This document shows, one piece after another, positions 15,264 to 17,784 of a stretch of 21,918 nt of DNA. Both the position numbers and the translations under genes were made by a program. Below the pieces are notes generated by a model. It saw only the letters and a program-made list of their open reading frames with translations. It did no database searches and had not been told where the DNA came from. This DNA comes from a virus. The stretch spans positions 1-21,918 of the IMG/VR virus record IMGVR_UViG_3300042325_000272. One strand, 5' to 3'. Positions within the stretch are counted from its first letter, which is position 1; every line of letters starts with the position of its first letter.

Positions 15264-15619
15264 TTGAATTGAGATTTAAAATAATTTAACTTCTCTTCTA
15301 GTAATTGATTTTGTCTTTTCAAAGTTTGTATTTCCACATCCAACTTACTAAATTGATATTGGATAAACATAAGCCGTTTTAACGTGTTTTCTATAATCTT
15401 TGTATCTATGTCTTTAGATTGTTGCTTTAATAGCGTAGCTTCAGTCCTAAAGGCTAAATTCTTTATGTAATGAAATGCCGTATTAATATCTAATTCAGTT
15501 CTTAAATTACCGTTTATCTTTTCATGTTCTGATAATTCTATATATTGTTTAGCTAACTCCTCTTTGATGGATATGAAAGGAGTGTTTAGTATTATACATT
15601 TTGGGTTAGTTAGTTCCAT
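15260..15619 (-). CDS. Coiled-coil hypothetical protein in replication operon
   Basis: A 119-residue protein. The N-terminal part (NPKCIILNTPFISIKEELAK) may form a short strand-helix element; from about residue 55 on it is a continuous helix with heptad-like Leu/Ile/Phe spacing, ending in KLDVEIQTLKRQNQLLEEKL, a clear coiled coil. It overlaps the primase/helicase gene by 10 nt and the SF2 helicase gene by 4 nt. A dimeric adaptor between the two helicases is a reasonable guess, with no family evidence. Confidence 0.6.
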   Translation of the reverse strand: MELTNPKCIILNTPFISIKEELAKQYIELSEHEKINGNLRTELDINTAFHYIKNLAFRTEATLLKQQSKDIDTKIIENTLKRLMFIQYQFSKLDVEIQTLKRQNQLLEEKLNYFKSQFK

Positions 15620-17025
15620 TTGTCTAAGGTTTTTGGATTAATATTAGTTTTATTTATTTTAAATTTTTTAATACCACCAGGTGAAACACTTTCATATTCA
15701 TAATTATAGAAATCACAATACTTTTTAATACAAATTGAAACCTTATTTTTTGTTAATTTATTTCTGTCAAATTTATTAATCAATTGGCTTTCATAGAAAT
15801 CATAAAACCACTTAGATTCATACCATTCATTAGAAATTAAACCTATTAAACATTCCATTAACTCTTTAGTCAACTCAACCTCTAACTTTTTAAATGGTAA
15901 AGAAATACTATTATATTTCATTAAACCAAAACTTAAATATTTCTTAATACATTCAATCATGTAACAATCAAATCTAGCGTATTCCTGACTATCCCAATCA
16001 TCAAAAAGCATATGACCAAAGAAGTCCTGAGGGGAATGATTAGCGTTAAAAAAAGAACTTAATTCGACCTCAAACTTTCTAGCGTCATGACTTCCTCCTG
16101 TTCCTTTAATGACATAATTTGTAGTAATTAATATCTTTGGCGAATCTTCTACGGGTAATTTAATAGTATTTTGTCCTTTGTAAGTAATTTCCATTCCCTC
16201 TGTAATCATTGAAAATAAATTTATAAAAGCAAAATTAGGCTTTACATCATCATAAACTAATATTTGACAATCGGTCTTAATTGATTGATAAGGAAATTGA
16301 TCTAAAAAAGAAAATGATTTACCATTTAAAGATTGTACCCTTTTCATTAATCCTAAAGCATTCCAAAGTAAACCCTTACCACTCCTTCCATTTGGCTCAT
16401 CGCTTATCATTTCATCATTTAAAATAATAGCTTTATTGTCTACTTTTGACTTGTAACTATGAATCAAATAACCTATCACACTTTGAAACGTATTATATCT
16501 ATCTACATTCTCACCGCTTATTTTCCATATAAAAGTTCTAAACTCACTTTCATGGTGGTCTGATTCAATGTATTTTCTTTTAATAACCTGGTCTTTCCAA
16601 ATTGAAACTCCAAAATCACTATATTTTTTAAGAATTTTAACATCTTTTTTTACTTCTAAAATTCCGTTTTCATAAAACAAATATGCTGTATCTTTTGTAT
16701 CTTTTAATACCTTAATTTCTTTTGAAACTATTTGACTTAAAAAATCTCGTTTAAACGTGGTTGTCTTTCCAGCCATTAGATTGTAAACTGATTCATTGTC
16801 CTCACTATCTAAAACATAATCTAATACATAATCCTTAATATCTGTTTCGTCTTTTATCTCTAAAAAAATCCCTTCTTTTTTTATTAAATTAAAAGAGCTG
16901 TTTTCATTAGGCCTATTCTTAAAAAATCCACTACCTTCTAAAAATCTTCTAAAACCTAAAATACTTAATGATGGCTTACCGTCTTGACTTATTCTCCAAA
17001 ATGGTTCTAAATTATTATTATTCAT
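15610..17025 (-). CDS. SF3-type primase/helicase (DUF5906-like AAA+ ATPase)
   Basis: A 471-residue protein from the ATG at 17023-17025 (the TTG two codons upstream is rejected). An N-terminal domain (about 1-105) contains LEPFW and GFRRFLEGSGFFKNR. The ATPase domain carries Walker A NGRSGKG (212-218), Walker B ILVYDD (255-260), a sensor-1 strand ILITTN (298-303) and a candidate arginine finger in SHDARKFEVEL (R316). This arrangement fits the SF3/D5-like replicative helicases of phages and plasmids. A winged-helix-like C-terminus is likely. It is the main replication protein in the window and lies just downstream of the iteron region, a usual place for an initiator. Confidence 0.85.
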   Translation of the reverse strand: MNNNNLEPFWRISQDGKPSLSILGFRRFLEGSGFFKNRPNENSSFNLIKKEGIFLEIKDETDIKDYVLDYVLDSEDNESVYNLMAGKTTTFKRDFLSQIVSKEIKVLKDTKDTAYLFYENGILEVKKDVKILKKYSDFGVSIWKDQVIKRKYIESDHHESEFRTFIWKISGENVDRYNTFQSVIGYLIHSYKSKVDNKAIILNDEMISDEPNGRSGKGLLWNALGLMKRVQSLNGKSFSFLDQFPYQSIKTDCQILVYDDVKPNFAFINLFSMITEGMEITYKGQNTIKLPVEDSPKILITTNYVIKGTGGSHDARKFEVELSSFFNANHSPQDFFGHMLFDDWDSQEYARFDCYMIECIKKYLSFGLMKYNSISLPFKKLEVELTKELMECLIGLISNEWYESKWFYDFYESQLINKFDRNKLTKNKVSICIKKYCDFYNYEYESVSPGGIKKFKINKTNINPKTLDKWN

Positions 17026-17305
17026 TTTCAATTTCAGTTAGTATATTAATATTAAAATATTTTTTTTTATCTATTACAGAAAAAACATATTTACTTACAT
17101 TATTATCAATTAAGTATTTCATGACAAAATATTTAACTTCAAATAAATGTATGACTTTTATTATATCATTTTCCTTTAAAACAACTTCGTAACTATTAAA
17201 ATATTTTCTTTTAAAGAATCCATTATTTTCTAAAAATAAATTAAATAATCCCTCATTAATAAAATAACCACCTAAATGTCTTTCACTCCAAAATTCTTCA
17301 CTCAT
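17018..17305 (-). CDS. Stand-alone paralogue of the helicase N-terminal domain
   Basis: A 95-residue protein that aligns along its length with the first ~105 residues of the next gene product. Shared landmarks are E-x-FW (4-6 here; 7-10 there), LFNLFLENNGFFKRK (20-34) against GFRRFLEGSGFFKNR, a long amphipathic block ending VMKYLI against VLDYVL, and a final Phe-rich helix (YFNINILTEIENE against TFKRDFLSQIVSKE). It lacks the ATPase. It is the first gene after the origin-like region and overlaps the helicase gene by 8 nt. A gene duplication followed by loss of the ATPase part is likely. It may bind the same DNA or partner as the helicase and so modulate initiation. Confidence 0.75.
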   Translation of the reverse strand: MSEEFWSERHLGGYFINEGLFNLFLENNGFFKRKYFNSYEVVLKENDIIKVIHLFEVKYFVMKYLIDNNVSKYVFSVIDKKKYFNINILTEIENE

Positions 17306-17317
17306 AATTAACCGTTT

Positions 17318-17411
17318 TTAAAAACAAAAATCCCTATTAAAAAGCCACGGTCAAACAGCTGTTTTAATAAGGATTTTCTAAAAAATTTCTTTATATGGAT
17401 TTGACCGTTCC
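17318..17411 (-). ncRNA. Candidate ~90-nt leader RNA
   Basis: The promoter at 17446-17417 predicts a start near 17411 and the terminator ends near 17320, giving a discrete RNA of about 90 nt without a credible ORF. Its first bases (ACGGTCAAA, 17408-17400) are perfectly complementary to 9 nt in the loop of the terminator hairpin (TTTGACCGT, 17355-17347). Pairing would make a pseudoknot or a competing fold, as in attenuators and small control RNAs. The loop also begins with a 12-bp palindrome, AAACAGCTGTTT (17353-17364). No known riboswitch class was recognised. Confidence 0.5.
17320..17377 (-). terminator. Strong intrinsic terminator / attenuator in the replication leader
   Basis: In the minus transcript a 16-bp stem forms between 17377-17362 and 17342-17327 with a single G-U pair (17370/17334) and a 19-nt loop, followed by TTTTTGTTTTT (17330-17320). 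It ends 14 nt before the start codon of the 95-residue gene and lies downstream of the promoter at 17446-17417, so transcription of the replication operon must read through it. Confidence 0.75.
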
Positions 17412-17416
17412 GTTTA

Positions 17417-17446
17417 CAAATATAAGTATAATTTTCTAATCAACAA
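17417..17446 (-). promoter_or_regulatory. Bacteroidetes-type promoter of the replication operon
   Basis: Minus strand TTG at 17446-17444, a 19-nt spacer, and TATATTTG at 17424-17417: an exact fit to the Bacteroidetes TTG / TAnnTTTG consensus with ideal spacing. The repeated TTTTTACG sites begin 20 bp upstream of the TTG box, so a protein bound there could activate or repress this promoter. Confidence 0.75.
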
Positions 17447-17460
17447 CAAATAAATTAAAT

Positions 17461-17784
17461 TAAATGTTTTTACGGGTTTTTACGGTGTTTTTACGGTGTT
17501 TTTACGCAACTTTTTACGGCTCTTAAGTCAATGACAGTAAAGGTTTAACTATCAACTGTAAAAACTTTAGATGTTTTTTTAGGAAAAAATAAAAAAAAAT
17601 TGGAAAAGCGTGTTTTATATATCTATAATGACTGGTACTTTTTTAAAATGTTTTTACGTTTTTATCATAAACCGTTACTATCATTGGTTTATAGACTGTA
17701 AAAACATTCTTATTAGTTGAATCAACTTTTTACGCTTAACTGTAAACTTTTGATTATCAATACTAAAACCCGTAAAAACATTTA
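17461..17784. repeat. 20-bp perfect inverted repeat bracketing the iteron region
   Basis: Positions 17461-17480 (TAAATGTTTTTACGGGTTTT) are the exact reverse complement of 17765-17784, 284 bp apart. Each arm contains one TTTTTACG site. A second, shorter pair, 17647-17657 and 17699-17709 (11 bp, AATGTTTTTAC), lies inside. The arms could form a cruciform or bring bound proteins together across a loop. Confidence 0.85.

Follow-up and report, generated by a model that had tools for sequence, protein, structure and literature searches.

The window analyzed here, the whole 21,918-nucleotide stretch of IMG/VR virus record IMGVR_UViG_3300042325_000272, carries a replication operon on its minus strand, and this operon is preceded by a leader of about 95 nt that has its own promoter. 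The features of the region are as follows.

17417 to 17446, minus strand: Bacteroidetes-type promoter, read from the sequence (TTG at 17446-17444, a 19-nt spacer, then TATATTTG at 17424-17417)
17397 to 17411, minus strand: H1, a 5' hairpin with a GGA/TCC stem around loop a (3- to 7-bp stems of other letters in relatives)
17400 to 17408, minus strand: kissing strand a, ACGGTCAAA, a perfect 9-nt complement of 17355-17347 that covaries in relatives
17384 to 17392, minus strand: conserved linker AAAGAAATT, from alignment A2
17327 to 17377, minus strand: H2, a terminator-like hairpin with stem P2 at 17377-17362/17342-17327, whose G-rich base and U-rich tail recur in relatives
17360-17358/17345-17343, minus strand: P3, the small inner stem of H2 (AGC/GCT)
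17347 to 17355, minus strand: kissing strand a', TTTGACCGT, within the H2 loop, from sequence and covariation
17320 to 17330, minus strand: U tract T5GT5, from sequence
17308 to 17315, minus strand: a2, a second partner of a', ACGGTTAA, with 8 pairs including one G-U, directly 5' of the start codon, from permutation tests over leaders
17018 to 17305, minus strand: the operon's first ORF (95 aa), paralogous to the N-terminus of the helicase (BLASTP E 7e-7, 26% identity over 93 aa)
15610 to 17031, minus strand: replication helicase, D5/VirE-like, from homology to annotated relatives, phrog_28855 and a tblastn match to a 'vire al domain' protein

The minus strand was re-read against a first-pass annotation of this DNA, and all of its coordinates proved correct. 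The consensus promoter it proposed is present, as TTG, 19 nt and TATATTTG, the last of which fits the Bacteroidetes -7 consensus TAnnTTTG (PMC7366714) and lies directly before H1. A 16-bp hairpin and a T5GT5 tract 14 nt ahead of the first gene, whose ATG is at 17305, were likewise found as described, with 94% complementarity over the 16 positions of P2, and the perfect complementarity claimed between the 5' segment and 9 nt of the hairpin loop is exact. What had been overlooked is that the 5' segment sits in its own short GGA/TCC stem; because the H1 stem closes this segment, the pairing is a loop-loop (kissing) interaction. The position ahead of replication genes was borne out with one correction, in that the operon opens with a paralogue of the helicase N-terminus and not with the helicase itself. 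In this paralogue, the N-terminal domain of the helicase stands alone and has diverged. The helicase has no Pfam match, and phrog_28855, in which it falls, is labelled 'unknown function', although related proteins bear a VirE-type annotation and a fused BT4734-like N-terminus.

Close upstream of this promoter, at 17466-17521 on the minus strand, lies an iteron-like array of CCGTAAAAAC(A) with 10- to 11-bp spacing and scattered copies reaching 17746. In relatives, the arrays at this position consist of different words (TTTCTACA, GTGGACTTTAT, AGTAATCTTTTT and TTCCCGACTTTT). These arrays are likely an origin or operator with phage-specific sites.

The stability of the window RNA was moderate for its composition (z of -1.98, with 8 of 200 shuffles equally good), and of 3126 overlapping positions sampled, 4 carried a 9-nt complement to the window loop, some of these covering the true site. 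Since the fold by itself is just moderately unusual, comparison with relatives was decisive. Relatives were collected through the helicase of the operon, which yielded 80 homologous IMG/VR loci, and a second scan supplied more contigs. Upstream of their replication operons, these phages display the same architecture: promoter, H1, a linker of the form AAGAnnTT, an H2 with a GC-rich base, a U tract and an ATG. This order is kept in 51 curated leaders, in which H1 begins mostly 3 to 12 nt past the TTTG (mode 5), the 8 nt past the last GG of H2 contain a mean of 5.7 U, and the last GG of H2 lies 21.6 +- 4.7 nt from the ATG. After H2 and its U tract, the distance to the ATG is 13 to 26 nt in most relatives. 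Within the linker, AAG and TT are nearly invariant among the 27 divergent leaders of alignment A2, and AAAGAAATT of the window conforms. A hairpin with a G-rich base followed by a U tract, as expected of an attenuator, was found in most members; one subfamily (UUUUGUCA, UUUUGACG) has a weak tract. The internal loop of H2 below the kissing loop has (U)UAG opposite GAAA in L021, L027, L030, L102 and the cultured elemovirus L202, which is possibly a tertiary motif or a protein site.

The first-pass annotation had suggested homologous leaders as a check on the long-range pairing, and in relatives this pairing is indeed kept through compensatory changes in the H1 and H2 loops. Loop letters are entirely different between related phages while complementarity is retained, as in the pairs GCCTTGGA/TCCAAGGC, GTCGGAAAACA/TGTTTTCCGAC, CATCTCAC/GTGAGATG and GTGGAAG/CTTCCAC. 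An alignment of 12 members shows the kissing helix 100% paired, with 4 of its 8 pairs changed on both sides. Covariation over the whole structure in the same alignment was 0.259 compared with 0.136 in shuffles, none of 500 reaching the real value, and it dropped to 0.015-0.090 when the structure was slid along the alignment. Automatic collection over all fetched sequence gave 82 distinct leaders, a small number of which are probably chance, and these fall into 39 clusters by kissing sequence. At a descriptor score of 20 or more, real promoter-proximal segments gave 47 matches and dinucleotide shuffles 1; at 22 or more, the counts were 20 and 0. The shuffled and cross-paired controls leave some relatedness, and kissing types repeated across contigs were collapsed where stated.

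An unbiased scan of all IMG/VR was conducted with patterns naming the linker and the H2 base alone. It returned 21 rows in which the promoter is exact (a few being one site under two patterns), and complementary loops, defined as at least 6 nt including at least 3 G or C, were present in all 21; cross-paired H1 regions and H2 loops were complementary in 10.7%. A covariance model (R3) matched 25 of 32 phage contigs, many of which had supplied training sequences, usually once and sometimes twice; its alignment includes two probable chance rows (L182 and L026 3148). E-values that come from the short calibrations are rough. The model also found, at 39.6 bits, the leader of the cultured Flavobacterium phage elemoE, which had been left out of model building. 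Cultured Flavobacterium elemoviruses carry the leader with compensatory changes in the loop pair (TGAGAGC/GCTCTCA in elemoA vs GTGGAGG/CCTCCAC in elemoE), and their linker departs from AAGAnnTT. A single copy was found in the elemoA genome, ahead of the replication genes. No convincing leader was seen in the stretches examined of MW202828 and of Cellulophaga, Polaribacter, Maribacter and Bacteroides isolates, and a covariance-model scan of 296 Bacteroidota genomes gave no matches, the same scan also missing the known positive G031.

Scans of whole loci that dropped the promoter requirement produced many chance matches. Several low-scoring descriptor matches on the minus strand and in coding regions were discarded as chance, and L022 2567, L029 432 and L037 930 were set aside as covariance-model false positives representing ordinary operon terminators upstream. 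L138, L140 and L156 look like genuine leader variants.

The claim that no RNA family of this design had been described agreed with the searches, which gave no Rfam matches to the leader: in Rfam 15, no family reached the gathering score for the window, and a permissive search of seven sources yielded two chance-level matches (E of 0.87 and 2.5), both outside the leaders. The H1-linker-H2 leader therefore looks like a conserved, apparently previously undescribed RNA family of Bacteroidetes phages, an assignment made from sequence comparison across contigs that are mostly metagenomic and may be incomplete.

The genes that follow the leader are mostly replication genes, of unrelated kinds. They encode D5/VirE-type helicases, BT4734-like N-terminal primase-helicases, DnaD-like helicase loaders and DUF6291 proteins, as well as SF2 helicase-methylases, ParB-like proteins/methylases and, in several phages, proteins resembling HNH homing nucleases. 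As these families are unrelated, the RNA travels with the replication operon and not with a single protein family. First ORFs whose starts resemble NUMOD4-HNH homing endonucleases stand directly behind the leaders of L005, L051, L052, L102 (two), L105 (the 10117 leader) and L126, and phages with such a gene sometimes have another leader at a different genomic position. The nuclease and its leader may be mobile as a unit.

Past H2, a second copy of a was found directly 5' of the start codon in at least 11 leaders (the window, L005, L015, L024, L026, L030, L037, L051, L052, L126 and L231). For duplexes of the H2 loop with the 45 nt past H2, 11 of the 51 leaders reached a permutation p of 0.032 or less, where about 1.6 were expected; one of these, L106, is probably a chance case, being located within coding sequence. 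Counted by kissing cluster, at least 6 exact nucleotides precede the ATG in 6 of 39, against an expectation of 0.57 and a maximum of 4 in 2000 permutations. The element a2 is present in about a sixth of kissing types and absent in most. The predicted duplex energies of a:a' and a2:a' differ by at most about 4 kcal/mol in ten leaders, among them L052 (-15.6 and -14.5 kcal/mol), L126 (-11.3 and -11.2) and the window (-14.3 and -10.1). By these predictions, the H2 loop of such leaders has two near-isoenergetic, mutually exclusive partners, a newly recognized feature, and the order a - a' - a2 is the layout of a two-way switch. Of the pseudoknot or attenuator that had been proposed for this site, the structured leader with a long-range pairing stands; in most members, however, the pairing is a kissing loop of two hairpins, and in a subset of kissing types that includes the window, the H2 loop is also contested by a third element, located at the start codon.

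Together, we hold with about even confidence that the leaders are cis-acting attenuator or translation switches controlling the replication operons of Bacteroidetes phages. Polymerase would start at the dedicated promoter and H1 would fold at once. The emerging a' could then find its partner a in H1 before the 3' arm of H2 has been transcribed; in predicted folding of growing window transcripts, a:a' forms first (-9.7 kcal/mol at nt 70), and H2 takes over at about nt 86. H2 would close next and, with the U tract, act as an intrinsic attenuator about 20 nt ahead of the start codon. The choice of partner by a', either a or, in the subset, a2, would decide both read-through and accessibility of the mRNA start region, a2 serving as a translational arm in those kissing types, the window included. 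This choice is probably tipped by a protein, of the phage or of its host, that reads the nearly invariant linker, the obvious candidate site. Expression should need read-through of H2, because the 20 nt ahead of the gene leave no room for another promoter, and this need, together with the terminator form of H2 in most members, favors attenuation in cis. Against switching, a kissing complex can contain a:a' and H2 at once, and a classic either/or antiterminator is not evident. The weak U tract of one subfamily and the lack of a2 in most kissing types also count against this model.

Action in trans was weighed against this model. A leader terminated mainly at H2 could persist as a stable small RNA whose H2 loop pairs with a or a2 of other leaders, with a role in, for example, replication or superinfection control like that of phage P4 CI RNA. 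The U tract past H2 in most members would suit such an RNA, as would loops that diversify between related phages (39 clusters), which is expected of specificity determinants. P4 immunity is the nearest analogue in design: an untranslated leader in which upstream and downstream complements (seqA and seqC) surround a central RNA (CI RNA/seqB) and transcription is stopped before the replication genes (PMC4825925). The order a - a' - a2 mirrors seqA - CI - seqC in that a central strand has complements both upstream (a) and downstream (a2), a likeness confined to the window and a subset of kissing types. Here, in contrast, about 120 nt contain all three elements, the central strand is inside a terminator-like hairpin, and no processed antisense RNA is known for the kissing-loop leader. 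Moreover, a' is already bound in cis by a. A tyrosine integrase, the type searched, was found in 1 of 32 contigs, which may be incomplete, so that lysogenic immunity is improbable for most of these phages. Kissing sequences elsewhere in the same loci were not enriched (7 vs 13 expected), nor were antisense promoters opposite the leader (12 vs 14 expected); since there are no further targets in the loci and no excess of antisense promoters, action in cis is favored, and we consider the small RNA unlikely. The antisense count also separates the leader from the pseudoknot leader of IncI/IncB plasmid repZ, where a loop pairs with a distant segment near the start of the replication gene to control initiation, itself under antisense-RNA control. 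The c4 antisense RNA of P1/P22-type phages is another short structured RNA with complements in its own transcript. That family is listed as RF01695 (PMC2864571); the leader has no Rfam match and differs from it in host group, position and structure.

Further explanations were also considered. The 5' pseudoknot operator of T4 gene 32 mRNA precedes a replication gene and binds gp32, that gene's own product. A comparable operator, on which an operon product or a host protein would repress translation, or a paired 5' end protecting the mRNA, would agree with pairing from the first nucleotides, with narrow spacing to the ATG and with conserved linker and inner-loop letters between varying helices. 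The first proteins encoded behind the leaders are, however, unrelated to each other, leaving no common operon product as ligand, and a 5' protector has no need of a2; we judge this rather unlikely. Quite improbable, in our view, is an antiterminator that binds its own polymerase and carries it past terminators of the early operon, as the putL RNA of HK022 does. That RNA, about 70 nt with two hairpins directly behind an early phage promoter (PMC9378689), is similar in place and size when compared from the literature, and the nearly invariant linker could contact polymerase; yet putL has another structure with no internal terminator hairpin, the paper on the put structure makes no mention of a kissing loop or a pseudoknot, H2 itself resembles a terminator, and bypass of downstream terminators is conjecture. 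A DNA element, either an origin hairpin or an operator, would agree with the adjoining iteron-like repeats upstream of replication genes and is very improbable, as the fixed place behind a promoter, the U tract on the 3' side and the narrow ATG spacing point to RNA, and copies also precede HNH and methylase genes.

To our knowledge, the timing of replication in Bacteroidetes phages is largely unknown. The occurrence of one leader before such unrelated genes as D5/VirE-like helicases, DnaD-like loaders and DUF6291 suggests a common regulatory solution in these phages, with cis-acting attenuation and translational switching as the reading we prefer. In its widest form, which we put forward tentatively, one terminator loop would have a choice of two partners, located at the 5' end of the RNA and at the start codon, and the leaders would make up a large undescribed class of riboregulators coupling transcription attenuation to translation of replication genes through orthogonal, phage-specific loop codes, perhaps with a part in competition during co-infection. 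The cultured Flavobacterium elemoviruses (host BAL314) make the leader directly testable, and its naturally orthogonal loop pairs are a potential set of parts for gene control in Bacteroidetes.
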